DNA of 64,000 nt from Margaritifera margaritifera (Eukaryota; Mollusca; Bivalvia; Unionida; Margaritiferidae): contig JAQPZY010001686.1 in the NCBI GenBank assembly GCA_029931535.1, forward strand, positions 9,397,001 to 9,461,000. The letters are read 5' to 3'. This document shows, piece by piece, positions 38,031 through 56,578 of this stretch. The translations under genes and the position numbers were made by a program. Under the pieces are notes generated by a model. The model was not told the origin of the DNA and made no database searches. It saw nothing but the letters and a program-made list of their open reading frames with translations. How positions within the stretch are numbered: position 1 is the stretch's first letter; each line of letters begins with the position of its first letter.

Positions 38031-38046
38031 GGCCCTGAAAAGGGCC
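38031..38046 (-). terminator. Histone-type 3' stem-loop (site 1, - strand)
   Basis: On - it reads GGCCCTTTTCAGGGCC, followed by ACCCA and a cacaaaaaatta tract. A six-base-pair stem with a UUUC tetraloop fits the metazoan histone mRNA 3' consensus. It lies 50 bp after the stop codon of the small gene at 38099-38305. Confidence 0.82.
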
Positions 38047-38098
38047 GTTGTTTTTTTGGGGTTTTTTTGTTGGTTTAACATACACATCTCCTGGAGGG

Positions 38099-38305
38099 TC
38101 ATCTTTTTCGGAGACTTCTACGGACTTCCGGACCGTACATCAAGACACGCTTTAAACATCCTTGTCGTTCAATATAGATGCGACGTTTCCAGATGGCGGT
38201 CTCTGTGATCTTGGTGATCGCCCATGAAGCTCGAACATACATCGGGAATGCTGGGTCGAACAACATCCCCGAGACGATACTGGATGACTCGACGTTTGTC
38301 CACAT
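38099..38305 (-). CDS. Small unidentified protein with histone-type 3' end
   Basis: A 68-residue protein starting MWTNVESSSIVSGMLFDPAF. The second half is strongly basic (IWKRRIYIERQGCLKRVLM and a final RRSLRKR), suggesting nucleic-acid binding or nuclear targeting. I do not recognise it and see no histone-fold homology. The ATG at 38305 is chosen because a TATA box on - (38366-38373) would start transcription near 38340. An alternative frame starting at 38358 lies upstream of that start point. The gene is followed by histone-type stem-loop site 1 and is divergent from the gene at 38554. There are no breaks. Confidence 0.55.
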   Translation of the reverse strand: MWTNVESSSIVSGMLFDPAFPMYVRASWAITKITETAIWKRRIYIERQGCLKRVLMYGPEVRRSLRKR

Positions 38306-38365
38306 TTTTCTTCTTCTGGAGTGGTCTTGGAGAAAACCGGTGAAGCTCTACGAGACAAGCGATCG

Positions 38366-38373
38366 TATATATA
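38366..38373 (-). promoter_or_regulatory. TATA box of the leftmost - strand gene
   Basis: On - the sequence is tatatata within gggtatatatacgatcg, about 60 bp before the ATG at 38305. A CCAAT-like attggta motif and a cgcgcgc string lie upstream on the same strand. Confidence 0.55.
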
Positions 38374-38489
38374 CCCTACGAGTGGATTGAAATGAATCGA
38401 AATGAACTACCAATCCAAGCGCGCGTTACAAGTAGGTAGGTTTTTCTTCCAATGGGAAGAGAGCGGGGGGGGGGGGGGGTTGGGGTGGG

Positions 38490-38520
38490 TGACGTCATCT
38501 GGAGTATAAAGGCATCACAG
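38490..38520 (+). promoter_or_regulatory. CRE/ATF site plus TATA box
   Basis: A perfect TGACGTCA palindrome (38490-38497) lies 17 bp before TATAAA (38515-38520), and the ATG of the next gene follows at 38554. Together with the - strand TATA this forms a divergent promoter. TGACGTCA sites next to a TATA box are also known from adenovirus early promoters. Confidence 0.65.
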
Positions 38521-38553
38521 CGTTCGTAAGGATTTTACTTTTTGGACAGCCGA

Positions 38554-39159
38554 ATGGAGACCGCAAAGACCACTATGTATTGGGTTGAGCCTGCAAAGAC
38601 CACCAATGCCGTGTTGAACTTCCAACCGGAAGATTTTAATTTAGATTTCGGAGATTTTTTGTCTGAAGAAGTTATGCCTGAAACTACCACGACTGCTATA
38701 CCACTACCCTCTTTGCCTGTCATCGAGGATTTTAAAAAGAGACTGCAAGAAGAAATGGAAAAATTTATACAGCGACAGAGAAGCTGAAGAAGTGTTTCTT
38801 CAGCAAGAAGAGGAAAGGAGAAAACGAGAAGAAGAACTGAGAAAGTTAGAAGAGGAGAAGAGTGAAGAACCGAAAGAAGAGAGCGATGAAGATAAAACGG
38901 TGAGTCTACCACAAGACATTTTATCTGAGTTAAAGCATCTAAGAAAGTTTATGAGTATTCTTTAACTCAACCTAAGAGAAAAAGACCATCACGGGCGAAA
39001 CATTCGAAACCGATCACTACTAGTGAGATGCTACCACCACCACCACCATTTACTACTACTACCACCAAAGGCAGCAGCAGGAGGAGGAATAGGACTGGGT
39101 CGTGGAAAAGGATTGCGACAGTTGAAGTTAATCATTTCGAGCCCATAAGTTTGTTTTAA
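38554..39159 (+). pseudogene. Acidic coiled-coil protein gene, frameshifted and possibly spliced
   Basis: ATG 38554 opens 77 codons (METAKTTMYWVEPAKTTNAV..., with an acidic hydrophobic FQPEDFNLDFGDFL segment like an activation domain) that stop at 38787. A one-base shift near 38760, at an A5T3 run, restores a long Glu/Lys coiled coil (VFLQQEEERRKREEELRKL) to about 38899. There a strong donor gtgagt (38900) suggests an intron. Downstream frames encode a basic KRKRPSRAKHSKP segment and proline-rich or Gly-rich residues up to 39159. It could be a nuclear regulatory protein. The function is unknown. The unit ends in histone-type stem-loop site 2. Confidence 0.5.
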
Positions 39160-39181
39160 CAAAACAAACAAACACCCCAAC

Positions 39182-39197
39182 GGTCCTTTTCAGGGCC
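39182..39197 (+). terminator. Histone-type 3' stem-loop (site 2)
   Basis: GGTCCTTTTCAGGGCC: six-base-pair stem (one G-U) with a TTTC loop, preceded by ccaac, followed by ACCCA and purine-rich tagaaaagaaat. A cattgcc motif follows at 39223, as it does after the other copies. Confidence 0.85.
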
Positions 39198-39411
39198 ACC
39201 CAGATCTCTAGAAAAGAAATCACATTGCCAAATCAAGTAAAACTTTAAAATCCCATTCCTTGGTTTTGTGTAAGAGTGAGTGAGTGCGTGCGTGCGTGCG
39301 TCCACACTCTATAAACAAAAAACACAAAGACACTAACTTTGTTTCCATTCTGGTCTATTCTCTTTTTTTTTTACAATGAACATCACATTACACTCAAAAA
39401 AAGTTCATTGT

Positions 39412-40008
39412 TCACTGTCTGCTGTCTCTCTTGTTCTTCTTGAATTTCTTCATAGGAATCAAGGGTTGTTTTTCTTCTTCTTTCTCACTGTCTTCCAACC
39501 GTGTAGCTTTCTTACTTTTCTTGACGACGGGGATGAGTTCTTCTTCTTCTTCTGGGGCTGAAGATCCTTCGGCTTCCTCACTCTCTGGTAGGTTTTCTTG
39601 TTTCTGAGGACACTCCGAAGACCAATGTCCTTTTTCATGACAATGATAACAAGTATCTTTCCCTTTATCTCTGTTTTGGTTTTGACGTTGTGGACATTCT
39701 GGAGCCCAATGTCCTTTCTCTTGGCAGATATAACAAATATCTTGACTTTTATCTCTCTCTCTTTTTCTTTGAGGACATAATGAAACCCAATGTCCTATCT
39801 CTTGGCAGATATAGCAAGTATCTTGAGTTGTATCTCTCATTCCTTTTCTTTGAGGACATAATGAAGCCCAATGTCCTTTCTTGTGGCAGACATAGCAAGT
39901 ATCTTGACTTTTATCTCGAGCGCAAATATTTTGCATTATCCTATCGTCTATAGCCTGAGAGTATTTGGCAGAGTCATTAATTGGAAAACCTCTTCTTGAC
40001 TTTTGCAT
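39412..40008 (-). CDS. Tandem CCHC zinc-knuckle protein
   Basis: A 198-residue intact protein. Four CX2CX4HX4C knuckles sit at about residues 38-51, 65-78, 92-105 and 120-133, each in a repeated unit like CYICQEKGHWAPECPQR. They are followed by an acidic stretch (EEEEELIP) and a Lys-rich C-terminus (KKSKKATRLE, KKFKKNKRDSRQ). The knuckles suggest single-stranded nucleic-acid binding, as in Gag or CNBP-type proteins. The repeat units are recent intragenic duplications. The start is ATG 40008, because the upstream TTG at 40029 is not a eukaryotic start. It shares a short bidirectional TATA region with PolB. No histone-type stem-loop follows. Not recognised as a standard Maverick core gene. Confidence 0.72.
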   Translation of the reverse strand: MQKSRRGFPINDSAKYSQAIDDRIMQNICARDKSQDTCYVCHKKGHWASLCPQRKGMRDTTQDTCYICQEIGHWVSLCPQRKRERDKSQDICYICQEKGHWAPECPQRQNQNRDKGKDTCYHCHEKGHWSSECPQKQENLPESEEAEGSSAPEEEEELIPVVKKSKKATRLEDSEKEEEKQPLIPMKKFKKNKRDSRQ

Positions 40009-40065
40009 CTTCACAGTTTGAAAGTGCAATCACAAAGACTGATTCTGAGGGTAGGAAGGTCTCTC

Positions 40066-40073
40066 TATATATA
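40066..40073. promoter_or_regulatory. Shared bidirectional TATA box
   Basis: The palindromic ctatatatag lies 58 bp from the - strand ATG (40008) and 44 bp from the + strand ATG (40117), so one box could serve both genes. Confidence 0.5.
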
Positions 40074-40116
40074 GGTTCCTGTGTGAAACTGAATCAGATT
40101 CAAATCAAACTTCAAG

Positions 40117-40347
40117 ATGAAAAGATCACGCCAAATCTATGAGAAACCAGAAGAAGAAACAAAGAGGCCACGGCGACGAAGATTTTCTGTGCCGCCTGAA
40201 ATACCGCTCGCTGAACTGCTAGCTCAAGTCCATGCTAGCGATTTCGAAGAAGAGATGAGTGAGCCTGAAACCCAAGCTTCTAACCCACCCAAAGAATCCA
40301 CCACCACCACCATGCCTGACCAAGAAAGTCCTACCGTGGCTCCCTAG
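40117..40347 (+). CDS. Basic N-terminal ORF overlapping PolB
   Basis: A 76-residue frame, MKRSRQIYEKPEEETKRPRR..., containing a strong basic cluster (KRPRRRRF), then an acidic and Ser/Thr/Pro-rich tail, ending TAG at 40345-40347. It overlaps the PolB frame from 40259, whose own frame has no ATG near its start. Most likely this is the N-terminus of PolB, separated by a frameshift or joined by splicing. An independent small protein is possible. No homopolymer marks the break. Confidence 0.5.
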   Translation: MKRSRQIYEKPEEETKRPRRRRFSVPPEIPLAELLAQVHASDFEEEMSEPETQASNPPKESTTTTMPDQESPTVAP

Positions 40348-43300
40348 AGAGACACAAAAAATAACCTCTAGAAAATTTAGAACCACAGCATACACTCACA
40401 CGGTTCACTTCAAAGACTTCAAGTCCGAAGTGCCTCCCGAAAAAGCGGCAGGGTTCATTACCGATTTGTGGGGTTCTGTGTTACAGAACTTGAAACGACA
40501 ATGTGGAGCCAAAGAGGACGATCGATTGAGACTAGCCATCCATCACGACAGCGTGAAGTCACCTGTCTGGATCGAGTTCAGCACCCCGGCAGAATTAACA
40601 CCAACCAAAGTCATGACCAAAATAGAACACGTTCAACAATCCAACGAAAAGTTTACCATCACGGATGGAAAGGCTACACTTTACATGACTCACGTTGCTC
40701 CTCCTCGAAGGAGCGGACGAAGTAGGAAAGCGTTACTGCTGGACGACCTTCGCAGTACCAAACACAGTGTTGTCCAAATCGACAATACACAAGACCAGAT
40801 GTGCTTGGCTCGGGCCATCGTAGTGGGGCGAACGTATGCCGACAAGAACGAGAGCGCAGAATGGAAAAGAGTCTGGAAGAGCATTCGACAATCGGACAGA
40901 GCCAAACAACGAAAAGAAGCAGAACTCCTGTTACAACAAGCAGGCATCCCCAAAGAGACCGTGTGTGGTATTTCTCAAATGCAAAAACTTCAAGACGTCT
41001 TGGCTCCTGGCTACACTTTGAAAGTTCACCCTCAAGAAGTGCGCGGAGATATGCTGTTTCGAGGCCCCGATTTCCCCGAAGGAAAATATATTCACGTGAA
41101 TTACCACCAAGAACATTTCGATGCCATCACCAGTATCACAGGATTTCTGGGACACTCTTACTACTGCGAGAAATGCGACAAAGGATTTAACAATCGGGAG
41201 CGACACACTCATTGCGGAGAGAGATGTCGGGGGTGTTTAGCGGCCAAGTCATGCTTTCCTGAACAACACGTCCATTGTGAGACGTGTCGACGAACTTTTG
41301 TCAGTCCCTCTTGTTACGAACAGCATCGCAAGACACAAGGACACCAACAAAAATGTGCTTGCGACTTATTGAAATTGTGTTCCACGTGTGGAAACCTGAT
41401 TCGTACCCACGACCCCAAGAGACACACTTGTACCGGTAAGAAAAGATGCCGCATTTGTCAGCAGATGGTGGATTATGATCATCAATGTTTCATGCAAAAG
41501 TACGACAATACAGAGAAGAAAGAATTAAAGAGGGATCAAAACAAGACTCAAGTGGATTTCTTTGATTTTGAATGCATGCAAGAAACACGCATTCACATTC
41601 CCAATTTCTGCGTGGCTCATCGGGCTTGTGAGAAGTGGATCCAAGAATCTATCCATTTTCACTGTCCTCATTGTAGTCGGATTCCAGGAGGACGTGAAAA
41701 AATCTTTCGCGGTGCCAACACTTTGCCCCAGTTTGCTGAATGGATTTTAGACCCCACCGACGACACTTGGAGCGAAGAGGACATTCAACGCTACGGAGAC
41801 TGTCATCGCTATGCGACCGTCATGGCTCACAATTTCTCGGGATACGATGGACAGTTTTTGTTAAAATATTATTGGCAACAAGGTACCGAATGTCCCATGG
41901 TCACCATGAACGGAGCCAAACTCATTTACATGAAAGTAGGACAAGTGCAGTTCAAAGATTCCATGAGTTATTTGGCCATGCCTTTGAGTCGAATGCCTAA
42001 AACATTTGGTATGACAGAAATGGCCAAAAGATATTTTCCTCACTTCTTCCATACGGAAGCCAATCAACACGCTGTGCTACCGCATTTGCCTGACGTCGAC
42101 TGTTACGACCCCGACGGAATGAGCCCCGAACACCGAGAAGCCTTTCACTTTTGGTACCGCGCTCACCAGTCAGAACCGTTTGACTTCCAAGAAGAGATGC
42201 TCAAGTATTGTCGATCCTATGTGGACATTTTGCGCCGTTGCTGTGGAAAGTTTCGACAGTTATTTCTAGATCACGGAGACGTCGATCCTTTGAAAGAAGC
42301 GGCCACTCTACCCAAAGCCTGTACCTTAGTCTACACCAAAAACTTCATGCCTGAGAACGAACTAGCCATCATAGACTCCAACACGTCTCTCTTTGCCAGC
42401 CGTCAATACTCGGCCAAAGCCTTGGGTTGGTTCCATTACTTGTGCCAAAAGGAAGACAAATGGATACAACATGCTAGAAACGAAGGAGGAGAAAAGAAGA
42501 TTGGATCTTATTCAGTGGATGGATTTGATTTAGAAAACCCGCACACGGTGTACGAATTTCAGGGTTGCTTGTTTCACGGATGCCCTACCTGTTTTCCTGA
42601 ACGAGACCTGAAAAGTCCTTTTTCAAATTTCACCATGGAACAGTTGTACGAACGAACTTACCAACGACGACTCAAGTTAGAAAGTCAAGGATACCAAGTG
42701 GTAGAAATGTGGGAGCACGAGTACGATCGACGTTTGAAAACCGATCCTGAATTTAAGAGCATCAATGAAAGTTACGACGTGACCACCATCGAGCCTTTGG
42801 ATCCGCGCCACAGTTTATTTGGAGGACGAACCAATGCCACTCGCTTGCTGTACGACATAGACGAATCCAAAGGAGAAGAAATCAAGTACATCGACGTGTG
42901 TTCGTTATATCCTTGGGTGTGCAAATATGTTCGTTTTCCAACCGGCCACCCTAAAATCTTGACAGAACACATCGACGTGGAACACATTCGTCAATACGAA
43001 GGATTGATCAAATGTAAGGTCTTACCCCCGACCCACTTGTTCCATCCTATCTTACCTCATCATTGCCAAGGAAAACTGATGTTTCCTTTATGTCGTACGT
43101 GTGCCGAAACATGCAACCAAGATCACCCCTGTCACCACACGGAGGAAGAACGCTCTTTGACAGGAACGTGGGTCAGCGCCGAATTGTTTCGGGCACTGGA
43201 TCGAGGATACCGTTTGTTGAAAGTGTACGAAATCTGGCACTTTCCAACCACAGCACAATACCAAAAGGACGACGCCTCGAATCCAGGCATTTTCTCGGGG

Positions 43301-44247
43301 TACGTCAACCAATTTTTAAAACTGAAACAAGAAGCCAGCGGCTATCCCTCGTGGTGTCAGACTCCCGAAGACCAAGTTCGATTCAAAGAAGAGTACCGTG
43401 ACATCGAAGGGATCACTTTGGAAGACGTAGAAAAAACGAAGGAAAAAGATCGTTTGCCAAAGCCATGCTCAATTGCTTGTGGGGAAAAATGGCACAACGT
43501 ACGATCTTACCCAAGACGGATTACGTGACCGATCCTTATCGCTACTTTAAACTGGTGGACGACAAAAGTATACTGATGAAACACGTCGAAATCGTCCGTG
43601 ATGATTTGATCTTAGTCAATTTCGAAGAAGAACCCAAGTTTGTAAAACCTGACAAGTTTAGCAACGTGGTCATTGCAACCTACGTGACCGCTCATGCTCG
43701 CTTGAAATTGTACGACGAAGCTTTAGAAGTCTTGGGAGATCGTGTCCTGTACTTTGACACCGACAGTTGTATCTACATCCATCGACCCGGTTGCCCACAC
43801 CCTACCATCCAAGGAGATCGTTTAGGAGCCTGGACGGACGAGCACCCTCAAGACACCATCCTGAGTTTTGCCAGCGGTGGCCCTAAAAATTACGGCTACC
43901 GATACCGAGACCCGCAAGGACAATTTCACACTCAATGCAAAGTTAAAGGATTGACCCTAAACTATCGAACCAGCCGAGTGGTTAATTTTGAGGTTTTGAA
44001 AAATGCTTTGCTGTCTGGAAAAGTGGAAGACTTTCGAGTGCACACGTTAGAACCTCACAAGATCGTACGGTTACCTAATCACCAAATTGTCACTCGTCCT
44101 TTACAAAAAGTATACCGAATCGTGTACCAGAAACAAGTGAGACTTCCAGACCACACCACTTTGCCTTACGGACACGCCGATCTGCAGTATAAAAAAGGGA
44201 CCCCTTCCAAGACTAACCATTCATTGCAAATACAGACGTCTACCTAG
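40259..44247 (+). pseudogene. polB: Protein-primed DNA polymerase B (broken by a frameshift)
   Basis: Family B polymerase of the Maverick/adenovirus type that replicates linear DNA from a terminal protein. The first frame (40259-43528) has an N-terminal Maverick-type region, a Cys/His-rich zinc-binding array (about 41158-41500), Exo I (FFDFE, near 41570), Exo II (HNFSGYDGQF, near 41830), Exo III (YCRSYVDIL, near 42210), the inserted VDGFDL...FQGCLFHGCP segment, and motif A (DVCSLYP, near 42895). Motif B (KAMLNCLWGKMAQR) and motif C (YFDTDSC, near 43755) are in a second frame (43465-44247). The one-base shift lies at cgtttgcc (about 43450), a T-run just before motif B. All catalytic residues are present, so the lesion could be recent or an assembly indel. 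Confidence 0.88.
44188..44195 (+). promoter_or_regulatory. TATA box inside the PolB 3' end
   Basis: tataaaaaa lies within PolB coding sequence, 57-64 bp before the ATG of the BIR gene at 44252. Confidence 0.5.
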
Positions 44248-44251
44248 AAAG

Positions 44252-44842
44252 ATGAATTACACAGAGAGAAAAAAGACGAGTGAGAATTTCACCTCTACTG
44301 TGAACTCCAAGTGCCATCACGACTTGGAGTGCGATGCAGTGCCCCCTTGTCCAGTGCCATGCGAGGAGACGGATTCCGTACGCTTTGGCATCAGCGATTC
44401 AGAGTCACACGATGAGACGGATGTCGTACGCTTTGACATCAGCGATGCAGCACGACCTCACCGTCCCTCTAACGATGCAGGACGACCTTTATTCTTTATT
44501 AAACGTACCTGTGAATGTCATACCTACAGGAGTAAAGAATTGACGATACCTGTGGCTTTGCCTGGTTATTCAAAGTTTGAAAAGCGACTCCAGACGTTCA
44601 AAGACAAGTGGCCTAAATATTTATTACAAGCAACTACTCCCAATGCTTTAGCCAGATCTGGATTTATCTACTTGGGAGAAGGAGATAAAGTTCAGTGTTT
44701 CAGTTGCGGTGTGAAACTTCACCAATGGGAGCCTAGCGACTCGGCTTACTTGGAACATGCTAGATGGTCTCCTCACTGTCAGTTCTTGCCTTTAGTGGGT
44801 GAAGAGTACACCACGTACGATGAGACGGATGACAAGAAGTAA
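44252..44842 (+). CDS. BIR-domain (IAP-like) protein
   Basis: A 196-residue intact protein. Residues about 108-180 form one BIR domain: RLQTFKDKWP, LARSGFIYLGEGDKVQCFSC, then a W and the zinc ligands C149, C152, H169 and C176 (in EHARWSPHC). No RING follows, so it resembles single-BIR viral and survivin-like proteins rather than full IAP E3 ligases. The N-terminal half is unrelated, with a duplicated ETDxVRFxISD segment (about 39-65). Established: BIR proteins bind caspases or IAP antagonists, or act in mitosis. Inferred: it may restrain host cell death during element replication. IAP-like genes occur in other Mavericks and large DNA viruses. The promoter is probably the TATA at 44188. Confidence 0.85.
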   Translation: MNYTERKKTSENFTSTVNSKCHHDLECDAVPPCPVPCEETDSVRFGISDSESHDETDVVRFDISDAARPHRPSNDAGRPLFFIKRTCECHTYRSKELTIPVALPGYSKFEKRLQTFKDKWPKYLLQATTPNALARSGFIYLGEGDKVQCFSCGVKLHQWEPSDSAYLEHARWSPHCQFLPLVGEEYTTYDETDDKK

Positions 44843-44846
44843 CAAC

Positions 44847-45731: not shown

Positions 45732-45740
45732 AAACCCACC

Positions 45741-46100: not shown

Positions 46101-46275
46101 AGAAGACATTAGTCAAACTTTATCTACCCTTCATACGTTTCAAGAAGTGTGTATTGCTAGTGAGTTACACCAACAACTTTACACTTGGAAAGATGTACGT
46201 GACTGGAAAAGTATTGGTTTCGATGCTTGGCTACAAGAAGTGGCCCAGTTTGCCAAAGATCTGGCACGTCACTAA
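46009..46275 (+). CDS. Unidentified small protein
   Basis: An 88-residue frame, MTIHALSVHERQIVLKVLRV..., helical and without recognisable motifs, ending DLARH. It overlaps the 3' end of the frame at 45741 and precedes the membrane protein at 46313 by 37 bp. It could be the main product of the TATA at 45727, since that promoter would start just inside the previous frame. Confidence 0.45.
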   Translation: MTIHALSVHERQIVLKVLRVVMKTSGVPPCEEDISQTLSTLHTFQEVCIASELHQQLYTWKDVRDWKSIGFDAWLQEVAQFAKDLARH

Positions 46276-46312: not shown

Positions 46313-46612
46313 ATGACCTTAGAAACAATCCTGGAAGAACCTGACACAGAGAAAGACTACACCGTCGTCCAAATACAACCCTCTGAGGAACACACACCCT
46401 TTCTGTCAGAGACATTTCATTCTTCTACCACCACCAGAACAAAGACGACCAGAAGAATACCCCCAGTGCCTGTGCCTTCCATTCCTAGGACAGTGTTTTG
46501 TTCTTGTTGTACATTGACTTGTTTATACAGAACTTTAATTCTTTTAGTGGTAGCCTTATTCTTGTATCTGACCATTTTTGCGGTCTGCATTTTTGTCCTT
46601 CATGACTTGTAA
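46313..46612 (+). CDS. Small C-terminally anchored membrane protein
   Basis: A 99-residue protein, MTLETILEEPDTEKDYTVVQ.... An acidic then Ser/Thr/Pro-rich hydrophilic N-terminal 60 residues, a Cys cluster (FCSCCTLTCLY), then one hydrophobic helix at about 73-96 (LILLVVALFLYLTIFAVCIF). The topology would be tail-anchored or type II. I do not recognise a family. It lies directly upstream of the packaging ATPase. Confidence 0.55.
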   Translation: MTLETILEEPDTEKDYTVVQIQPSEEHTPFLSETFHSSTTTRTKTTRRIPPVPVPSIPRTVFCSCCTLTCLYRTLILLVVALFLYLTIFAVCIFVLHDL

Positions 46613-46721
46613 AATATGTTTTTGTTGTTTGTTTGTTTTTGAAAAAAAAATAAACGTGTATGAAACGTATAAAATGTCTTGGGTCTTTTGTCTTCTTCTC
46701 AAAAATCTTCCTACCTCAGTC

Positions 46722-47462
46722 ATGGCTACATCTTCTTCTGCCTCGTCTGCCTCTTCTACTTCCTTTGTGGTCAAAGTGATTGACGAAAAGTTAGATCGTC
46801 CCAGTTGGGACGCTTTGTATTTGCGCCATCCATTTAACATGTTGATTGCTGGACCGAGTGGTTCAGGCAAAACCGAATTTGTCAAACGTTTGATCGAACA
46901 CAAATCTCATCTGTTTGATCGTCCACCTCAACGCATCGTATGGTGTTACAAAGAGTGGCAATCGTCCTACACCTTACTTCGTGAAAGTCAAGGAGAAGCC
47001 ATTTCATTTGTAGAAGGCATCCCTCGCGAAGACGATGGGATCGTGTCTGACGTGAGTCAAACACATCTGGTCATCTTCGACGACATGTTATGAGAAGACG
47101 AAGAAGAAATTAAACTTTGGTTTACACGAAAAGGACACCATCGAAATACCAGCATCATTTACATTACTCAAAATTTATTTCAACAAAGTAAAGCCCATCG
47201 TACCATCAGTCTCAATGCTCATTACGTGGTCTTGTTTAAAAGTCCCAGAGACAAATCTCAAGTGCAAGTGTTAGCCAAACATTTAGGCACTCCTTGGCTG
47301 AATTATGCGTACGACGATGCCACTCAAACACCTCATGCGTATTTACTCATCGACTTAAAACCGACCACTCCCGACTATTTGAGATTTCGTACCCAACTGT
47401 TTCACCATTGGTGCCAAGAAGGAGGTCCTGTCATTTACACGTCCCCTTCAGCCACTCTCTAA
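46722..47462 (+). pseudogene. Packaging ATPase (FtsK/HerA-type) with in-frame stop
   Basis: Genome-packaging ATPase of the A32-like FtsK/HerA superfamily found in Mavericks. Walker A is AGPSGSGKT (residues 43-51) and Walker B is HLVIFDD (about 115-121). A TGA at 47091-47093 follows directly after IFDDML. The same frame then continues intact for about 122 codons (LWFTRKGHHRNTSIIYITQN with the sensor-like TQN, and LNAHYVVLFKSPRDK) to 47462. So one nonsense change truncates the protein after Walker B. The ATG 46722 is chosen as a TATA-like gtataaaa at 46667 precedes it by about 50 bp. Confidence 0.85.
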
Positions 47463-47467
47463 AAAAC

Positions 47468-48820: not shown

Positions 48821-48901
48821 GAGGTGTCATGCGATAAAAAAAGAAGATAAAAAGGACACCCTTCTCTGGAAAGACCACACATTTTTGTACCTTTGGATGA
48901 A

Positions 48902-49771
48902 ATGGAAGGACGAAAACTGACTTTAGTATCTTACAAACTATGGATGGAATTTCATCGTTGGAAAGAACAACGGATACCTCATTTACCTCCCAATCCCAAT
49001 CTCAACGAGATGTCACAGTTACAACAAGCATTACAAGCGCTGATGGAACGAAGCGATTTGTCCGAAACAGAAAAATCGCAACGGTACGGTCAAGCTTTTC
49101 AAAAAGAATTGAAACAAAGACAAATTCATTTTTTTACCACCGAAAATCCTGAAACCAAAGCCAGTATCGTGGAACGTTTTCAAAGAACTTTGAAAGAACG
49201 CATGTGGAAATATTTTACACATCAACATACTCTCAAGTACATCGACGTGTTACCCCGTTTGGTCAAAGCGTACAATCAATCGTACCATCGAAGCATCGGA
49301 TGTGCCCCCGAAGAGGTCAGCCCTGAAAACGAAGTGACCGTGTTTGATCGATTGTTTGGTACACCCCAGAGGAGACCACCTCAGAAGAAAACCTTGCTGG
49401 CATTGAAAACGGGAGATTGGGTTCGCATCGGAAAAACCAAACGCACTTTTGACAAAGGTTATTTACCCAACTGGATCACCGAATTGTTTCGTGTCACTAC
49501 ACCCGTGCGTGGACGCAATCCTCCCGTCTATAAATTGGAAGACATGCATGGTGAAGTGCTCAAAGGAACATTTTACTTGCCTGAGTTACAACGAGTGACC
49601 AAAAAAGAAGACGCCTTGTACGACATCGAAAGCATTCTCGAACAAAGAACACGCAAAGTAGGCAAACGTCGAGTAGAAGAAGTCAAAGTACGTTGGAAAG
49701 GATATCCTCCTAGTTTTGATTCTTGGATTGCTGCTTCTCAACTCGTCGACGATAAAAAGAAAAAGAAGTAA
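48902..49771 (+). pseudogene. Chimeric integrase: C-terminal half with chromodomain fused to another virion protein
   Basis: The first about 65 residues (MEGRKLTLVSYKLWMEFHRW, LMERSDLSETEKSQRYGQAF) look like a different conserved Maverick protein. From about residue 70 the protein is the C-terminal part of a retroviral-type integrase: IHFFTTENPETKASIVERFQ with the catalytic Glu (E91), RTLKERMWKYFTHQ, a DNA-binding region (TGDWVRIGKTKRTFDKGYLP) and a C-terminal chromodomain (LYDIESILEQ, VRWKGYPPSFDSW). The zinc-binding N-terminus and the first two catalytic Asp residues are absent. A deletion with its junction near 49094-49118 explains the fusion. The product cannot catalyse integration. Confidence 0.8.
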
Positions 49772-49777
49772 CCTAAC

Positions 49778-50200: not shown

Positions 50201-51158
50201 CCAATTTTATTTAACTTTACCCAGTGACAGTTCCATGGATGTGTTTCCCAACAACACCTTATGTTGTTACACAGTCAAATTACCTCAGGCCATCCAATTG
50301 GATCACGAAGCTCATTGGGAAGTAGGTTTGGTAGAAATCATTCATCCTACGCAAATCATGAACATCGACCAAGGTCAAAACACTTTCGTCGTGGAAATCT
50401 TGAACGCAAAAATGCAAAATGAGTTGGAAAAAAATGATCCTATACTTTACGAGTCAAAAAAAGGGTAGTAGATCCTAAATCTCCTGTCTTGTCGCAGTAT
50501 ACCATGAAAATTCCTCCAGGGTATTATTTTACTGCTGAACATTTATTGGAGACGATTGCAACCATGTTCACAACCCAATTTGGCCCAGCCTTGACCAGTT
50601 CCAATAAATGGGTACGAATCGCTTACCATGCTGTGGCACGCCGTTTCATCTTGCAATTTTTCAAAGAGAAAAGGGAACTCATTGGCGAGAAAGACAAAGG
50701 CTTACCCGTGGAGGAGAAAACACCTTAACCATCACTTTTTCTCCTGGATTGTATGCTATTTTGGGTGGAAATAAATTGTATCCTATTCGAAAAATCAAAA
50801 GCAACGTAGAATTCGGAGATTGTTTTAAAACCCTATCGAATTGAACGAAGGTTTAAATTTAATGTTTGTGTACTCCGATGTGGTGGAATACAACGTGGTG
50901 GGACACACAGCTGCGCCCTTACTGAAAGTCCTTCCTTTCAAAGTGGATTCTGATGCTGGTGCGTACGAAGAAGGTGGAAACACGTTTCACGTTCACCGTG
51001 AATTTGTACACCCTCATTATCTTCCAGTCAGTAAATCGGATTTTGACACTGTCAACATTAGTATAAAAGTAGATTTGGGACAAAGTGTGCCATTCATTGA
51101 CAAAGGAAAAGTCACGGTGAAACTACATTTTCGGAAAAGGTTCTCTAATGCATTGTAA
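50193..51158 (+). pseudogene. Penton (minor capsid) protein with three frameshifts
   Basis: Starts MNDQFYLTLPSDSSMDVFPN, the conserved opening of the Maverick single-jelly-roll minor capsid (penton) protein. The frame breaks at an A7 run (about 50458), changes again between about 50650 and 50720, and again near 50825-50845 next to an AAAA run. The conserved pieces SQYTMKIPPGYYFTAEHLLE, LTITFSPGLYAILGG, NLMFVYSDVVEYNVVG and LPVSKSDFDTVNISIKVDLG follow in order to the stop at 51158. The length is close to normal, so little other than single bases seems to have changed. Confidence 0.75.
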
Positions 51159-51168
51159 CATCCAAAAA

Positions 51169-51525
51169 ATGTATCCAGTGTACCGAGGAGTGGCTCGACA
51201 ACGAGGACATGGTTTAGGAGATATGTTAAGATCGGCTTTTCGGACGGTAGCCCCTATTTTGAAACCCATGGTGACTCGAGGATTCCATGCCTTAAAAGAT
51301 GCCGCTTTGACGCAAGGAAAAGAATTTTTGCAAAATGTCCTCATTGACAAACAAAATCCCAAAGAAGCCTTTATGAGAGCAGGCAAAAATGTGTTGATGA
51401 ACACTGGCAAAGATCTTTTGGGTCTTCGAGAGAGTCCTATAAATTCACTTCACGCTTCTGGCCCTGGCATTACTTCTTCCTCCACTTCACAGCAAGGACA
51501 AGGTAGAAAGAGACGACGTCTTTGA
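51169..51525 (+). CDS. pVI-like minor virion protein
   Basis: About 118 residues from ATG 51169 (MYPVYRGVARQRGHGLGDML); an alternative in-frame ATG at 51148 overlaps the penton stop. An amphipathic, basic and Gly-containing N-terminal part (LRSAFRTVAPILKPMVTRGF) and a C-terminal nuclear-localisation-like GRKRRRL. Its position between penton and MCP and its composition fit the adenovirus protein VI-like protein of Mavericks (membrane-lytic cement protein). Intact. Its TGA overlaps the MCP ATG by one base (TGATG). Confidence 0.62.
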   Translation: MYPVYRGVARQRGHGLGDMLRSAFRTVAPILKPMVTRGFHALKDAALTQGKEFLQNVLIDKQNPKEAFMRAGKNVLMNTGKDLLGLRESPINSLHASGPGITSSSTSQQGQGRKRRRL

Positions 51526-52762
51526 TGGATTCATCTCCTATCGAATTTGAAATCAAAGGACAAACCGAAGATTACATCGATCTGAATAACAGTTACTTGT
51601 ACCTGAAACTCCAAGTGATCAAAACGGCGGTCAGCACCCTTCCTGGGGACGGTGACCGAGTTGCACCCGTCAATAATTTCATCCATTCTTTGTTCAGCGA
51701 AGTAGATTTGTACTTGAATAACAAACTGGTCAGCAGCAGTTTGGATACTTACCCTTACCGTGCTTATTTGGAAAATCTCTTGACGTACGGAAAAGAAGCC
51801 AAGAACACTCATCTGGATGCTTCGGTGGTCTGGAAACCTGACACCTCGGAAAAGTTCAACTAGACAGACTTGTCAGTAGCGGCGAAGTCTACTGAGGATG
51901 GTAATAATGGTAATAAAGATATAATTCCAGCAGTCCTACACAATGTGGGATTTAACGACCGTCGAATGAAAATCAGACGAAGTTTAGAAATGATGGATCG
52001 TTTGCATTTGGACATGTGGTTGCAAGACAAGTATTTGTTAAACGGAGTAGATGTACGCCTGAGACTGAATCGTAGTAGTGCCGCTTTCCATTTGATGGCT
52101 AATAGTAACGAGTGGAAAACCATCATCCAAGAAGCCAGACTTTACGTGCGCCGTGTAGAAGTCTTACCTAAAGTAGCCAACGACATCAGTCAAACGTTGA
52201 GCAGAACCACTGCCAAGTATCCTGTGCGACGAGTGGAAGTGAAAACCTTTACCATTGCCGCTGGACTCCGATCCAAACTCGAAGATCACGTTTTCCAAGG
52301 ACAGCTCCCCAAACGTTTGCTGATTGGCATCGTCAGTAATGCAGCCCTCAACGGACTCCACAATCAGAATCCGTTCGAGTTAAACACTACAACGTCTCCA
52401 AGATAGAAGTCAGTCGAGATGGCAAAACGTTGTGTACCAGACCTTTTGAACCTAAGTTTACCGAGAAAAATTACTTGCGATCTTACTTGAGCCTGTTTGA
52501 AGCCACAGGACAGTTAGGTACCAACACCAGCCACGGCATTTCGTAAGACGATTATGCAGGAGGATATGCGTTGTGGGGATTTGATTTCACTCCTGACCAA
52601 GGCAGCGACGAAGGACATTTCCACCCTATAAAATCAGGCCCACTTCGTGTGGAACTTCAGTTTAAAGATCCTCTACCCGAGACAGTGAACGTCGTCTTGT
52701 ATGCAGAATTTGATAATACTCTAGAAATCAACAGTTTGAGAGAAGTGATTCTAGACTATTAG
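51525..52762 (+). pseudogene. Double-jelly-roll major capsid protein, with two stops and a frameshift
   Basis: Maverick major capsid protein. The opening is SPIEFEIKGQTEDYIDLNNS, then VAPVNNFIHSLFSEVDLYLN and SLDTYPYRAYLENLLTYGKE. A TAG at 51861-51863 interrupts the frame, which continues with MKIRRSLEMMDRLHLDMWLQ, DKYLLNGVDVRLRLNRSSA and ARLYVRRVEVLPKVANDISQ. Near 52380-52400 a frameshift occurs, and the next frame carries FEPKFTEKNYLRSYLSLFEA and then a TAA at 52544-52546 before the conserved C-terminus (GYALWGFDFTPDQGSDEGHF and onward). The sum of lesions shows this gene no longer makes a capsid protein. Confidence 0.88.
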
Positions 52763-52773
52763 AAGAAAAAAAG

Positions 52774-53340
52774 ATGCAACACGTAGAAGAAGAAGAACCT
52801 ATGGAGATAGATAATGATGAGGGATTTTGTGAAGCACAACAGTCACAAACTACCGCGGATGATGATGACGAAGTGATTCATCGAGAACTTCCAAAAGAAG
52901 AAGAAAATAATACTGTTCCAAAGTTTGTTGGATTTATTTTTCGATGGCCTGAACAAGAAAAACATTTAGTCTCCTGTTATGCTAAGGAATTGACTGAAAG
53001 AATTAACAGCCTGACCCGAAAACATTGTCATGGATGTCAAATCGATCATCCCAGTCAGAAACAACACGACCAATGTTTGGTGATGACAGGCGAAGAAAAA
53101 TTGGACGAATATTTGGAAGAGGCCTGGTCTCAGATCTTGGAAGAAAAGGTGTTGAGACAATGGTATAAAGACTTGCAGGATTCTTCTTCACCTCCACTCA
53201 CTCCTCTGGAGATCCATCGCATCGAAGCTCTCATTCAACAGAGTACAGAAACTATCCGCCGTGAGAATTCGTGGAATTACTTGAGAAAACCATTCAAATT
53301 TAAAGTCAAGTGTGAATTGATGACTTATTATTTCCTGTGA
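52774..53340 (+). CDS. Conserved Maverick protein of unknown function (Cys/His motif)
   Basis: A 188-residue intact protein. An acidic N-terminus (MQHVEEEEPMEIDNDEGF), then a region with a Cys/His motif (HCHGCQIDHPSQKQHDQC) probably binding zinc, then helical segments (EEKLDEYLEEAWSQILEEKV). The CxGCxxxxPSQxxHxxC pattern recurs in proteins encoded next to the protease in Mavericks and related elements. Function unknown. It ends 4 bp before the protease gene. Confidence 0.62.
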   Translation: MQHVEEEEPMEIDNDEGFCEAQQSQTTADDDDEVIHRELPKEEENNTVPKFVGFIFRWPEQEKHLVSCYAKELTERINSLTRKHCHGCQIDHPSQKQHDQCLVMTGEEKLDEYLEEAWSQILEEKVLRQWYKDLQDSSSPPLTPLEIHRIEALIQQSTETIRRENSWNYLRKPFKFKVKCELMTYYFL

Positions 53341-53344
53341 AAAA

Positions 53345-53920
53345 ATGGATACCAGGGAACTTCATTACCTGTTGACTCGCAGTTCCTACACTTCTTCTTG
53401 GAATCCTGTGGTGTGTGCTAAAGATGAACTACCTCATCGCAAACCTAAAGACGTTCATGCCTATGTCATCAATACCGACGACAGTCATCGACCAGGAACC
53501 CATTGGGTAGCTGTGTATTTTCCCAATGATCACAATGGTGGTGTTGTGGAATATTTTGATTCTTATGGATTACCTCCTTTGGAAGACGACATCATCGAGT
53601 TTATGAGAAGAAATGCCATCTCTACTCGATTCAATAATGCCCGATTACAAGGATCGGATTCTATGGTGTGTGGACAATATTGTGTACATTTTCTTCATCA
53701 ACGCAGTCTCGGATATTCCTTAGAACATTTAGTGACTTGTTTTGATAGGGAATATGCTCGAAACGATGCTAAAGTAGAACGATGGTTTTGTGAACGTTAT
53801 GGTTATCTCTTGTCTTTAGCTCAGAAACGTAGCGTGCATCAGAATGATGTGGTTGTAGAAAAGTGGAAGTTTAGTTTACCTTCCCAACGTTGTCAACCCT
53901 GTAAATACGTTCCTGTTTAA
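53345..53920 (+). CDS. Adenain-like cysteine protease
   Basis: A 191-residue intact member of the adenovirus protease (C5/Ulp1-like) family, expected to process capsid and core precursors. Catalytic set in the usual order: H53 in THWVAVYF, D72 in YFDSYG, Q102 in RLQGSDSMVCGQYCVHF and C109, with the seven-residue Gln-to-Cys spacing seen in adenain. Length is near the family norm. ATG 53345 follows the preceding stop closely, suggesting coupled expression. A possible poly(A) signal attaaa lies at about 53978. Confidence 0.88.
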   Translation: MDTRELHYLLTRSSYTSSWNPVVCAKDELPHRKPKDVHAYVINTDDSHRPGTHWVAVYFPNDHNGGVVEYFDSYGLPPLEDDIIEFMRRNAISTRFNNARLQGSDSMVCGQYCVHFLHQRSLGYSLEHLVTCFDREYARNDAKVERWFCERYGYLLSLAQKRSVHQNDVVVEKWKFSLPSQRCQPCKYVPV

Positions 53921-54131
53921 TATCTTGTTGATTGTTAGTTTGAAATTTTTATGTTTAAAGAAGCTTCTTGTTGTTCATTAAAAATGTTGATTTTTTGAAG
54001 AAAAAAAAATGTTGTGTGGTTTATTGAAGTTGAAAAAAATTATTATGTTCTATCTATCTCTTTCTATCGATCTGAAGTCACCACCTCTATCCATTTTCTC
54101 ACTCTCGATCTGAACCCCATGTTTTCCATAT
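53921..54131. other. Short spacer with poly(A) signal candidate
   Basis: Contains attaaaaatg near 53978 and a poly-A run at 54000. It separates the virion genes from the histone-type-ended units. No ORF. Confidence 0.5.
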
Positions 54132-54155
54132 CGTCCGCGCTTCGAGCATATAAAG
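54132..54155 (+). promoter_or_regulatory. Promoter of right-end unit 1 (GC-box-like motif plus TATA)
   Basis: cgtccgcgcttcgagcata leads into tataaag (54149-54155). Nearly the same motif precedes the TATA of units 2 and 3 (55206 and 55931), so the three promoters derive from duplication or are under common control. Confidence 0.65.
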
Positions 54156-54219
54156 CGGTGCGTTGCCTAGTGTAGTCACTCTCGTTGACTCGTCAAGATC
54201 TCAACAACACTTCAAGAAG

Positions 54220-54612
54220 ATGGCAGGCAAGATTAGTAAACTGAACGAAGCTATGGTGAACATGCAGAGGGTGAATCATCATTTGATGGAGACCAACCCT
54301 GAGAGAAAGACAATGATCTTCCTACAAATGGCTCATGATCTGGTGGAAGAAGTCATGAGGGAAGAAATCATCAGGGACAGAACGGAATGGGAGGAGAGAC
54401 AAAGACTGCAGCAGCAACAACAGCAAAGACAACAACAACAACAACTCTTGCAGTCCATGAAACTACCCGACGGAGAAGTCAGCTGTAAGATAGATTGTGA
54501 TGAGTTTGCCTTCTCTTTTACCAGAAAGAGAGCTTGTCTTAAAGCCGTGAGACCCGTGGTCAAATGTGGCCGCCCTGCTGCAGCTGCCGCTGCTACCGCA
54601 ACTAGAAGTTAA
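54220..54612 (+). CDS. Right-end unit 1 protein: coiled coil with poly-Gln, histone-type 3' end
   Basis: A 130-residue intact protein from ATG 54220, 65 bp downstream of the TATA (the earlier GTG is unlikely). It reads MAGKISKLNEAMVNMQRVNH..., has an amphipathic helical region (FLQMAHDLVEEVMREEII), then a Gln/Arg tract (about residues 67-85), and ends in a basic Ala-rich tail (GRPAAAAAATATRS). Function unknown. The stop is followed after 24 bp by stem-loop site 3. It could be a regulatory or DNA-associated protein. Confidence 0.6.
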   Translation: MAGKISKLNEAMVNMQRVNHHLMETNPERKTMIFLQMAHDLVEEVMREEIIRDRTEWEERQRLQQQQQQRQQQQQLLQSMKLPDGEVSCKIDCDEFAFSFTRKRACLKAVRPVVKCGRPAAAAAATATRS

Positions 54613-54636
54613 ACAACAAAACTTCTTAACCCCAAC

Positions 54637-54652
54637 GGTCCTTTTCAGGGCC
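54637..54652 (+). terminator. Histone-type 3' stem-loop (site 3)
   Basis: GGTCCTTTTCAGGGCC preceded by cccaac and followed by ACAAA and atcaagaaaaaaat. Same stem and loop as site 2. A downstream cattgcc lies at 54686. Confidence 0.85.
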
Positions 54653-54688
54653 ACAAATTAATCAAGAAAAAAATAATTTTCATATCAT

Positions 54689-54693
<5 letters not shown>

Positions 54694-54770
<77 letters not shown>
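54694..54770. repeat. (TA)n microsatellite
   Basis: About 38 TA repeats followed by gtgtgtttgtgtgtttgtgt. The same TA/TGTG context occurs, shortened, at 55607-55640 in the next unit, supporting unit duplication. Confidence 0.9.
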
Positions 54771-54776
<6 letters not shown>

Positions 54777-55128
54777 TTGTGTGTTTGTGTCTTTGCCCAC
54801 CAAACAAAAATCCCTTTCCCAAAAAAAATAATGATTGTATAGATAGTGTGTGTTTGTGGTGTGTGTTTGATAAAAAAAATCAAAAAGGATAGTGTGGTGT
54901 GTTTGTGTGTTTGATAAAAAAAATAAAAAATAAAATAAAAAATATCATAAAGGATTGTGTGGTGTGTTTGTTTGTGTTTGATGAAAATCAAATCAAAAAT
55001 AAAAAAAGGGTGGTGTGTTTGTATGTTTGATAAAAAAAATTTAAAAAGTAGTTTCTTTTAGGTCTGCGCACTGGGTTTGTGTTTTTGGGGTTAGGGGTGA
55101 TGGAGTGCAAAATCCGCGAAGCCTAGAA
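54771..55128. other. Unit spacer, GT- and A-rich
   Basis: Repeats of gtgtgtttg with A-runs, and a ctgcgcactgggtttgtgttttt segment that is repeated at 55843 (ccgcgcactgggtctgtgttttt). No ORF of note. Confidence 0.5.
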
Positions 55129-55150
55129 TGACGTCATAGGGATGACGTCA
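55129..55150 (+). promoter_or_regulatory. Two TGACGTCA (CRE/ATF) sites
   Basis: Two perfect palindromes TGACGTCA at 55129-55136 and 55143-55150, spaced 14 bp centre to centre, about 70-90 bp upstream of the unit 2 TATA. The only other copy I noticed in the element is at 38490, in the left-end promoter. Confidence 0.7.
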
Positions 55151-55205
55151 GACGCGGGGTAGTGGGGTGATGTTTTTTTTTTGGAAAGGGATGTTTTCCT
55201 TCACG

Positions 55206-55228
55206 TCCGCGCTTCTAGTATATTAAAA
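55206..55228 (+). promoter_or_regulatory. Promoter of right-end unit 2
   Basis: cgtccgcgcttctag followed by tatattaaaa (55219-55228), 42 bp before ATG 55270. The same motif stands in units 1 and 3. Confidence 0.65.
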
Positions 55229-55269
55229 CAACACCTTCCCCGATAGAGCTACCCCACTTATTCATCAAG

Positions 55270-55533
55270 ATGAATACCGTCGAAATTATTAGACAGATTC
55301 GAGTTCATTTAGAGGTGGCGTGGCACCTTCTCCAAGAAGTGGAGAAGAGGGAGGAGGAGGAGAAGGAAAACAAGGATCCCATCAGACCGCATCCGATGAT
55401 GGAGGAGAAGGAGAATTGGGAGCCTGAAGCGACTCATCCTCCGTCGGCCTTTACAGCTCCATTTTGTAGTGTAAGCGAAAAAACATGGAGGGGAAGCTGT
55501 CGGGCCAGACCAGGGAGGTGCCCGCACCTCTAG
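55270..55533 (+). CDS. Right-end unit 2 protein, histone-type 3' end
   Basis: An 87-residue intact protein, MNTVEIIRQIRVHLEVAWHL..., with an N-terminal amphipathic helix, an acidic Glu-rich segment (EKREEEEKENKDP), and a Cys/Arg-containing C-terminus (GSCRARPGRCPHL). The opening resembles that of unit 3 (MNTIELLQEAWDVMVGVESL), so the two are probably paralogues. Function unknown. The stop is 19 bp before stem-loop site 4. Confidence 0.6.
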   Translation: MNTVEIIRQIRVHLEVAWHLLQEVEKREEEEKENKDPIRPHPMMEEKENWEPEATHPPSAFTAPFCSVSEKTWRGSCRARPGRCPHL

Positions 55534-55552
55534 ATGAACTTTAAAACCCAAC

Positions 55553-55568
55553 GGCCCTTTTCAGGGCC
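55553..55568 (+). terminator. Histone-type 3' stem-loop (site 4)
   Basis: GGCCCTTTTCAGGGCC with perfect six-base-pair stem, preceded by cccaac, followed by ACCCA and purine-rich acaagaaaagatt, the closest match in the window to a complete histone 3' signal with downstream element. cattgcc follows at 55602. Confidence 0.9.
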
Positions 55569-55930
55569 ACCCATTTCACAAGAAAAGATTAATTTTCATA
55601 TCATTGCCATATATATATGTGTTTGTATGTTTGTGTGTTTTGTCTTTTCCCCACTCCCAAAGCAAATCCCATTCCCTGGTATGTGTTTGTAGAGTGTGTT
55701 TGTATAGAGTGTGTTTTATAAAAAAAAATTAAAAAGGATGGTGTGGTGTGTGTTTGATAAAAAAAAAAAAAAAAATTTAAAAAAGGATTGTGTGTGTGTG
55801 TGTGTGTATGTATAAAAAGTTTATCAAAAATACTTTCTTTTAGGTCCGCGCACTGGGTCTGTGTTTTTTTTTTTTTTTTTTTTGTGTTTGATAAAAAATT
55901 ATGTTTTGGAAAAAGGGATGTTTTCCTTCA
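55569..55930. other. Unit spacer (duplicate of the 54653-55205 type)
   Basis: GT- and A-rich, with poly-A and poly-T runs, and the shared cgcgcactgggtctgtg segment. No CRE sites here, unlike the preceding spacer. Confidence 0.5.
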
Positions 55931-55954
55931 CGTCCGCGCTTCTAGCATATAAAG
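55931..55954 (+). promoter_or_regulatory. Promoter of right-end unit 3
   Basis: cgtccgcgcttctagca leads into tataaag (55948-55954), 43 bp before ATG 55997. Confidence 0.65.
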
Positions 55955-55996
55955 CGGCGCCTTCCGCAGTCGCGCCATTCACACTTCAACTGAAGA

Positions 55997-56170
55997 ATGA
56001 ATACGATAGAATTATTGCAGGAAGCCTGGGATGTAATGGTGGGTGTGGAGTCCTTGATGGAAAGGATTGAGTGTTGGTGGAGATATCCTGCCACCAAGCC
56101 ATACGTCACCAGCCAACTAGACACTCTCAATTCAGCGAGGAGGCTGGTGAACGATGTCTTGGTGGAGTAA
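55997..56170 (+). CDS. Right-end unit 3, first small ORF
   Basis: A 57-residue protein, MNTIELLQEAWDVMVGVESL and onward, amphipathic, ending RLVNDVLVE. It is a probable paralogue of the unit 2 protein by its start and promoter. It overlaps the next ORF (56154) by 17 bp. Intact. Function unknown. Confidence 0.55.
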   Translation: MNTIELLQEAWDVMVGVESLMERIECWWRYPATKPYVTSQLDTLNSARRLVNDVLVE

Positions 56171-56300
56171 ACCCAAAAGACTTCTTCGGCTCCTTGTCGA
56201 GTGGGGTTCTTTAAAACGAGCCTCGACTTACTGGATGGAGTGGAATACTTCCTACATCAAGTTCAACACGATGTATACACCACCACCCCACCCCCAGTAG
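56154..56300 (+). CDS. Right-end unit 3, second small ORF
   Basis: A 48-residue basic, Trp-rich peptide: MSWWSKPKRLLRLLVEWGSL and onward, ending YTPPPHPQ. It overlaps the preceding ORF in another frame. Whether it is translated (leaky scanning or a spliced mRNA) is unknown. Confidence 0.35.
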   Translation: MSWWSKPKRLLRLLVEWGSLKRASTYWMEWNTSYIKFNTMYTPPPHPQ

Positions 56301-56316
56301 CGCCAGGCGAGAAGAG

Positions 56317-56550
56317 GTGAACCTTAACATCGTCAAATTATTATTAAAACAAGTTTTGGAGAATAAGGAACAGGCCAGGAAAGAGAAGGAACTTCAACGC
56401 CTGAATTTAAACTGGATGAAAATCCAGGATAAGTTCAGACGTATGGAACATCCCGACTGGCTACCCAATCCACCACCACCACTCCAGAAGAAAAAAAAAT
56501 CTCGCACCACCTTCCTAGGCTTCTTTACTCAGTGTTGGAGAAAAAAGTAA
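56317..56550 (+). CDS. Right-end unit 3, third open frame, no ATG start
   Basis: Open frame reading VNLNIVKLLLKQVLENKEQA, RKEKELQRLNLNWMKIQDKF, then a Pro-rich and Lys-rich tail (PPPPLQKKKKSRTTFLGFFT). The helical, charged composition looks coding, but no ATG exists between the previous in-frame stop (near 56212) and the Asn codon at 56320, so it would need splicing from one of the preceding ORFs. The stop is 12 bp before stem-loop site 5. Confidence 0.4.
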   Translation: MNLNIVKLLLKQVLENKEQARKEKELQRLNLNWMKIQDKFRRMEHPDWLPNPPPPLQKKKKSRTTFLGFFTQCWRKK

Positions 56551-56562
56551 TCCTCCTCCAAC

Positions 56563-56578
56563 TGCCCTTTTCAGGGCC
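56563..56578 (+). terminator. Histone-type 3' stem-loop (site 5)
   Basis: TGCCCTTTTCAGGGCC: the outermost pair is lost (T opposite C) but five pairs and the TTTC loop remain, with ACCCA and caagaaaagatt downstream and cattgcc at 56611. It serves the three small frames upstream together. Confidence 0.78.

Follow-up and report, generated by a model that had tools for sequence, protein, structure and literature searches.

That SLBP and the U7 small nuclear ribonucleoprotein (snRNP) process the intronless, non-polyadenylated, S-phase mRNAs of histone genes is established, as set out in two papers (PMC5706932; PMC6303110). No report of histone-type 3' ends in Mavericks, adintoviruses or transposons was found in a search of titles and abstracts that took in few subscription papers. 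We analyzed a window of 64,000 nt from Margaritifera margaritifera (contig JAQPZY010001686.1), in which the region from about 37.8 to 56.8 kb is a degraded Maverick, resembling Maverick/Polinton elements and adintoviruses in its viral-type family B polymerase, chromodomain protein and inverted terminal repeats and, by weak matches, in an adenain-like protease and a P-loop ATPase fragment. The ends of this element carry five short genes, A (-) and B (+) arranged divergently on the left and C, D and E in succession on the right, each followed by a stem-loop. They are histone-type expression cassettes with non-histone coding regions, and we consider it likely that the Maverick ends carry genes built like replication-dependent histone genes, which would be transcribed in S phase, processed by SLBP and U7 and left non-polyadenylated.

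The sequence signals of the cassettes, their recurrence across copies, their linkage to gene and strand and their likeness to host histone genes are direct observations. A preliminary description of the window had placed five stem-loops in the end regions of the element, each on the strand of the small gene upstream of it, and none after the central genes. All five were found at these positions and on these strands (Table), and the relation to end region and upstream gene held for each. The histone stem-loop model RF00032 matched all five (E value up to 6e-5), with three matches over the curated cut-off of 34 bits and two, in cassettes E and B, just under it (E values 1.5e-5 and 5.9e-5, respectively); a scan admitting E values up to 1 returned no further match in the 64 kb, confirming the absence of the stem-loop after the central genes. 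The pattern GGYCCTTTTCAGGGCC with up to three mismatches occurred at six places in the window, namely the five stem-loops and one three-mismatch site at 10519, while dinucleotide shuffles gave a mean of 0.26 and a maximum of 2, with 0 of 100 reaching six. An origin of the stem-loops from a simple repeat or by chance was ruled out by these shuffles, by comparison of the cassettes and by the linkage to open reading frames (ORFs).

The surroundings of the stem-loops agreed with the preliminary description in part. The ACCCA expected 3' of the stem-loop is present in four of the five and is replaced by ACAAA at 54637; the downstream purine-rich run is present, but cassettes A and C of this copy deviate from AGAAAAGA. 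Of the stop-to-stem-loop distances given as 12–52 bp, the closeness stands, while the 52 nt of gene A is atypical because A is shortened in the window copy. Since the outermost two stem-loops fall inside an inverted repeat of about 80% identity and cassettes C, D and E have repeated promoter and 3' sequence in common, the five stem-loops do not represent five independent origins.

We then considered recurrence of the signal, for which all copy counts refer to one host genome (2.45 Gb) and to copies related by descent. A scan of the genome with RF00032 gave 508,685 first-look candidates, of which a part was scored, and listed 75 matches, all over the cut-off; the five sites of the window and the histone unit of locus L074 are not among these 75. 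The listed matches represent 73 loci, all of which were retrieved, and in 71 of them an A–E gene lies beside the stem-loop, the remaining two (L042 and L060) belonging to no A–E class. The possibility that the genome matches are host histone genes was ruled out for the 71 loci by the A–E gene present; how many host histone genes match cannot be deduced from the 75, because only part of the candidates was scored. A script run over the loci, with the window's five sites included, gave 138 sense stem-loops with an A–E gene upstream. The other 28 of the 166 raw stem-loop matches fell into no class and were excluded. Of these, 24 are near-palindromes read in antisense (23 GGCTCTTAAAAGAGCC and one GGCCCTTTAAAGGGCC) and one is an AGCTCT match; the last three, from L038, L042 and L060, are in sense but have no recognised gene. 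For 83 of the 138 sense stem-loops, an ORF of 60 codons or more that starts with ATG ended 0–45 nt upstream; the same held for 159 of 2760 positions drawn at random and for 3 of 138 in antisense. Across these 83 sites the distance from stop codon to stem-loop was 10–41 nt, under a limit that we had set at 45 nt. Among 29 exact stem-loops, one had the polyadenylation-type hexamer AATAAA between -60 and +100, versus 40 of 360 background tiles.

Because the loci had been retrieved through the stem-loop, two tests with less bias were added. In the first, the gene copy that had drawn each locus was set aside; of the remaining copies, 46 of 47 were followed by a stem-loop with up to three mismatches (16 of 16 for A, 7 of 7 for B, 4 of 5 for C, 12 of 12 for D and 7 of 7 for E), against 5 of 47 in the antisense control. 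For the second test, 20 of the 150 listed copies of the element's protease gene were picked without regard to the motif and spread over the list, and the 3 kb downstream were read. With E values up to 0.01, RF00032 had matches in 17 of these 20 loci, giving 36 matches, 25 of them over the cut-off and all 36 in sense. The stem-loop (up to two mismatches) followed gene C in all 16 loci where C was detected, gene D in 12 of 13 and the 3' part of gene E in 7 of 7. The exception for D (L108) has a different palindrome at that place, and the D match of L095 was excluded for offering too little room. Another palindrome, AGTCCTTCTAAGGGCT or similar, occurs in L091, L098, L099, L107 and L108, loci that have C or D shifted or lacking after the protease gene, perhaps through an insertion. 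A 4-kb piece from the element centre of one protease-picked copy contained no RF00032 match with E values up to 0.1, and the stem-loop patterns had 0 matches in IMG/VR. The preliminary description had weighed whether the motif might be a mere duplicated repeat; within this host genome it recurs in many other copies, gene-linked and in sense.

The host is an animal with tandem histone gene clusters. In one 8.1-kb host stretch holding H3, H4, H2B, H2A and H1, RF00032 matched all five genes at 36–38 bits each. We compiled 20 host histone 3' ends, made up of this quintet and 15 from the better-scoring part of 150 listed, several of them near-identical copies, and all 20 had the stem-loop by sequence pattern. 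The element AGAAAAGA was found at 123 of the 138 Maverick sites and in 8 of the 20 host histone ends, as opposed to 32 of 5000 random stretches; a looser purine-rich pattern was found at 123 of 138, 13 of 20 and 48 of 5000, respectively. TTGCC was present at 130 of 138 Maverick sites and 12 of 20 host histone ends (149 of 5000 random stretches), and in each of the two sets its median position was +50. The flanks of the Maverick stem-loops thus have both AGAAAAGA and TTGCC near +50 in common with host histone genes, which also speaks against a mere local duplication. The TTGCC box sits beyond the purine-rich element in host histone genes and Mavericks alike; we know of no description of a histone 3' signal that contains such a box near +50. 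The closest host histone 3' end is that of H2B, whose CTCTAGAAAAGA is identical to that of cassette B. The reading of these sites as histone-type 3' signals, already put forward in the preliminary description, is supported by these results, and cleavage, lack of a poly(A) tail and restriction to S phase are what such signals would predict.

Conservation of the signal exceeded that of the sequence farther downstream. The bodies of cassettes A and B in the window align neither with each other nor with C–E, except for a 21-nt match between A and E, and identity among the five window cassettes climbs to about 0.9 over the stem-loop and drops on both sides. Within classes, identity was 0.88–0.97 over the stem-loop versus 0.18–0.71 at +70 to +100, and in all five classes the copies agreed better in stem-loop, ACCCA and purine-rich element than beyond +56. 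From this comparison 3 of 45 E sites were removed as near-duplicates, and the selection of the loci influences its outcome. The stem is fully paired in 118 of 138 sites. Its varying pairs are pair 3 (C-G, T-G or T-A) and pair 4 (C-G, T-A or T-G, also C-A mismatches), both of which show two-sided changes in some copies. Among 51 distinct stem-loop sequences 95.4% of cells pair, and the number of cells changed on both sides and the covariation score beat nearly all shuffles (4 and 3 of 500, respectively, were as high).

Histone likeness was not confined to the 3' ends: histone-like promoters, which are absent from the preliminary description, were found in four of the five cassettes, all except B. 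With the flanks laid side by side, TGTTTTCCNTCACGTCCGCGCTT-like sequence stands upstream of the TATA box in C, D and E as in host H2B and H1; TTTCTTTTAGGTCYGCGC in the window's D and E differs by one or two changes from host H4; and cassette A has CATTTCAATCC followed by GGTATA as in host H2A. Local alignment to the flanks of host H1, H2A, H2B and H4 placed A, C, D and E above all 300 shuffles. When the flanks of all five host histone genes were slid over the 64 kb, the top promoter-like windows were those of E, D and C, and the top 3'-like windows were the five stem-loop sites, with H2B as best partner. Neither the window flanks (43.5 kb) nor the central part of the element (39.3–54.0 kb) contained any of the promoter modules. 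Across copies, the H2B/H1 module was present upstream of C (4 of 6 sites), D (16 of 19) and E (29 of 45) and the H2A-like module upstream of A (34 of 44), and the H2B/H1 module occurred at least once in each of the 20 protease-picked loci. This module may resemble the vertebrate H4 site II sequence.

The location of all five stem-loops in end regions, two of them in the inverted repeat, would suit palindromes that serve replication, packaging or integration at the element ends, with their histone likeness a by-product. We regard such a DNA-level signal as highly improbable, since the strand of each stem-loop is that of the gene upstream and since the asymmetric loop, the flank, the purine-rich element, TTGCC and the promoter modules too are common to host histone genes. 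A second explanation starts from the resemblance to H2B, which is the likest host gene for the promoters of C–E and for all five 3' ends: the element may once have acquired a host histone gene, H2B-like and at both ends, whose coding part was replaced and whose flanks persist by copying, now without function. The repeated flanks shared by C–E and the inverted repeat shared by A and E fit this history. Passive persistence is nevertheless unlikely, because the 3' signals are alike in five classes although the bodies of A and B are largely unalignable, because the stem-loop and downstream elements surpass the sequence beyond +56 in conservation in every class, and because some stem changes are compensatory; moreover, the promoter of A matches H2A and not H2B.

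Several results weigh against histone-type cassettes as the general explanation of these ends. The copies are related and the ends are mutually duplicated, so that the counts are not counts of independent events. Three of the 20 protease-picked loci had no RF00032 match, and gene C went undetected in 4 of 20. The ends of the coding regions are also well conserved in classes B, D and E, and the covariation results are mixed, in that the counts of pairs and of pair types did not rise above shuffles (327 and 330 of 500 as high). At pair 4, a C-A mismatch is present in 11 of the 138 sites. The promoter of cassette B lacks histone likeness (228 of 300 shuffles were as good), the promoter of A lay outside the 30 best windows shown in the sliding comparison, and the H4-like module occurs in 13 of 19 D but in 1 of 45 E sites and is never within 60 nt of a TATA box. 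Finally, U7 was not found in the host genome with RF00066, a search that found none in any control genome either.

Taken in order, a cassette comprises a histone-type promoter module (in four of five), a non-histone coding region, the stem-loop, a cleavage-site flank, the purine-rich element and TTGCC at about +50. The cassettes probably give S-phase-coupled, non-polyadenylated mRNAs. Host histone factors would transcribe A–E in S phase, and SLBP and the U7 snRNP would cut the pre-mRNA just 3' of the stem-loop. The mRNAs would then end without a poly(A) tail, be translated, and be destroyed along with histone mRNA. Accessory proteins would thereby be made while the cell replicates its DNA, and the possible gain is their production when nucleotides and replication factors are at hand. 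This processing, its timing and its benefit to the element are what we infer from the DNA. In a rival reading, abundant stem-loop RNAs would mainly titrate SLBP or U7 and disturb the host's histone supply, the proteins being secondary. Such a decoy could draw on the many copies of the element and on Maverick sites that reach 45.8 bits, above the scores of the five host histone genes, yet the signals sit close behind ORFs, in sense, and a separate promoter module precedes most cassettes, as expected of expressed genes; we judge it very unlikely. For the histone-type cassettes themselves we lean towards a takeover, in which a DNA virus lineage would have adopted host histone-gene control, promoter and 3' end together, for non-histone accessory genes, placing SLBP-bound, non-polyadenylated mRNAs under the machinery of S phase and the histone locus body.

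The coding regions scanned gave no sign of a histone family. In seven window frames of A–E and seven longer frames from other copies, no histone family was among the Pfam matches with E values up to 1, and all the matches obtained were weak and under cut-off; host histone pseudogenes inside the element are ruled out for these fourteen frames. Gene A has a relative from a metagenome, P0069, that is 67% identical, and P0069 itself had no relatives in IMG/VR. The N-terminal part of P0069 (VTRAWIG) recurs in the L013 translation upstream of gene A, read through the promoter region, a hint of conservation of this region in P0069 as well. No relatives of the gene D protein were found. Copies differ in their set of end cassettes: in some, such as L007, L009 and L043, genes E and A lie on one strand and an E-type gene is also found distal to A at that end.

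Between the ends lie the remaining genes of the element (Table). The polymerase has 68 relatives, those named including bivalves and a sea cucumber, and none in IMG/VR with single-sequence or alignment queries. The chromodomain protein is probably the C-terminal part of an integrase; no integrase catalytic core was matched in the window frames tried, and, for capsid genes, the reading frames tried at 51.1–52.4 kb gave no Pfam match. At least 150 copies of the protease were scored among 12,425 candidates in the host genome, namely the window's own and 149 at 94–99% identity, which together with their many open frames suggests a large, fairly young family. Terminal inverted repeats were found at both element ends, where inspection by eye showed no target-site duplication of the 6-bp type. 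The zinc-knuckle gene has four CCHC matches and four tandem 81-nt units, probably one knuckle per unit. A weak BTG-family match was noted at 52774–53340 and, outside the element, a weak hammerhead ribozyme match at 11614–11679 (-) (RF02275, 26.7 bits versus a cut-off of 52, E value 0.02).

Table. Positions of the end cassettes and other Maverick features in the window
Feature	Position	Strand	Remarks
Left end of element	37795..38050		Inverted-repeat outer arms 37920-37963 and 37968-38050; exact end putative
Histone-type 3' end, cassette A	37992..38051	-	Stem-loop 38031-38046; degenerate purine-rich element; TTGCC 37992-37996 (ggcaa on +); RF00032 40.4 bits (38006-38051)
Gene A	38099..38305	-	68 codons, against 76-77 in many other copies; without Pfam match
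Cassette A promoter	38366..38394	-	TATA and CATTTCAATCC, host H2A-like
Cassette B TATA box	38505..38510	+	No histone promoter module found for B
Gene B, 5' part	38554..38787	+	Interrupted in this copy; several others have about 190-205 codons
Histone-type 3' end, cassette B	39177..39229	+	Stem-loop 39182-39197; CTAGAAAAGA 39208-39217; TTGCC 39225-39229; RF00032 31.1 bits (39177-39221); likest host H2B
CCHC zinc-knuckle protein gene	39412..40008	-	PF00098
Viral-type family B DNA polymerase, open part	40613..43528	+	PF03175, 97.5 bits; further piece follows in other frame
BIR (inhibitor-of-apoptosis) domain gene, inside element	44252..44842	+	PF00653
Packaging-ATPase-like P-loop fragment	46602..47093	+	Under Pfam cut-off
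Chromodomain-containing protein	48902..49771	+	PF00385
Adenain-like cysteine protease	53345..53920	+	Weak matches to viral proteases, best E value 0.0002
Cassette C promoter	54119..54154	+	H2B/H1-type module and TATA 54149
Gene C	54220..54612	+	130 codons
Histone-type 3' end, cassette C	54632..54692	+	Stem-loop 54637-54652; A-rich element (not AGAAAAGA); TTGCC 54688-54692; RF00032 34.9 bits (54632-54677)
H4-type promoter module upstream of D	55052..55069	+	TTTCTTTTAGGTCTGCGC
Cassette D promoter	55191..55225	+	H2B/H1-type module and TATA-like box
Gene D	55270..55533	+	87 codons
Histone-type 3' end, cassette D	55548..55608	+	Stem-loop 55553-55568; CAAGAAAAGA 55579-55588; TTGCC 55604-55608; RF00032 42.2 bits (55548-55593); likest host H2B
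H4-type promoter module upstream of E	55834..55852	+	TTTCTTTTAGGTCCGCGCA; in 1 of 45 E sites, that of the window
Cassette E promoter	55918..55953	+	H2B/H1-type module and TATA 55948
Gene E	55997..56550	+	Broken, with open parts 55997-56170 and 56317-56550; several other copies have about 180-200 codons
Histone-type 3' end, cassette E	56558..56617	+	Stem-loop 56563-56578 (one weakened pair); CAAGAAAAGA 56589-56598; TTGCC 56613-56617; RF00032 32.6 bits (56558-56603)
Right end of element	56559..56811		Inverted-repeat arms 56559-56641 and 56715-56758; exact end putative

If the proposed expression pathway is correct, A–E would be metazoan protein-coding genes outside the histones with histone-type mRNA ends, the histone pathway would be hijackable as a unit, and the timing of Maverick expression to host replication could be explained simply. 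A single genome here also supplies many divergent promoters and 3' ends, a natural test set for the requirements of SLBP, U7 and histone promoter factors, the TTGCC box included.

The cassettes resemble metazoan replication-dependent histone genes in their TTTC or TTTA loop, AAC-type 5' flank, ACCCA, purine-rich downstream element and short stop distance, and, except for B, resemble host histone genes in promoters that combine TATA with H2B/H1-, H4- or H2A-type modules. They differ from histone genes in that A–E reside in a virus-like element, that their scanned frames contain no histone family and that the processing of their mRNAs is a prediction. The 'Histoid' of adomaviruses offers another link between an animal DNA virus and histones. 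Histoid is a protein remotely like histones (PMC11071296), whereas in this Maverick no such likeness was found in the proteins and the resemblance lies in the regulatory DNA.

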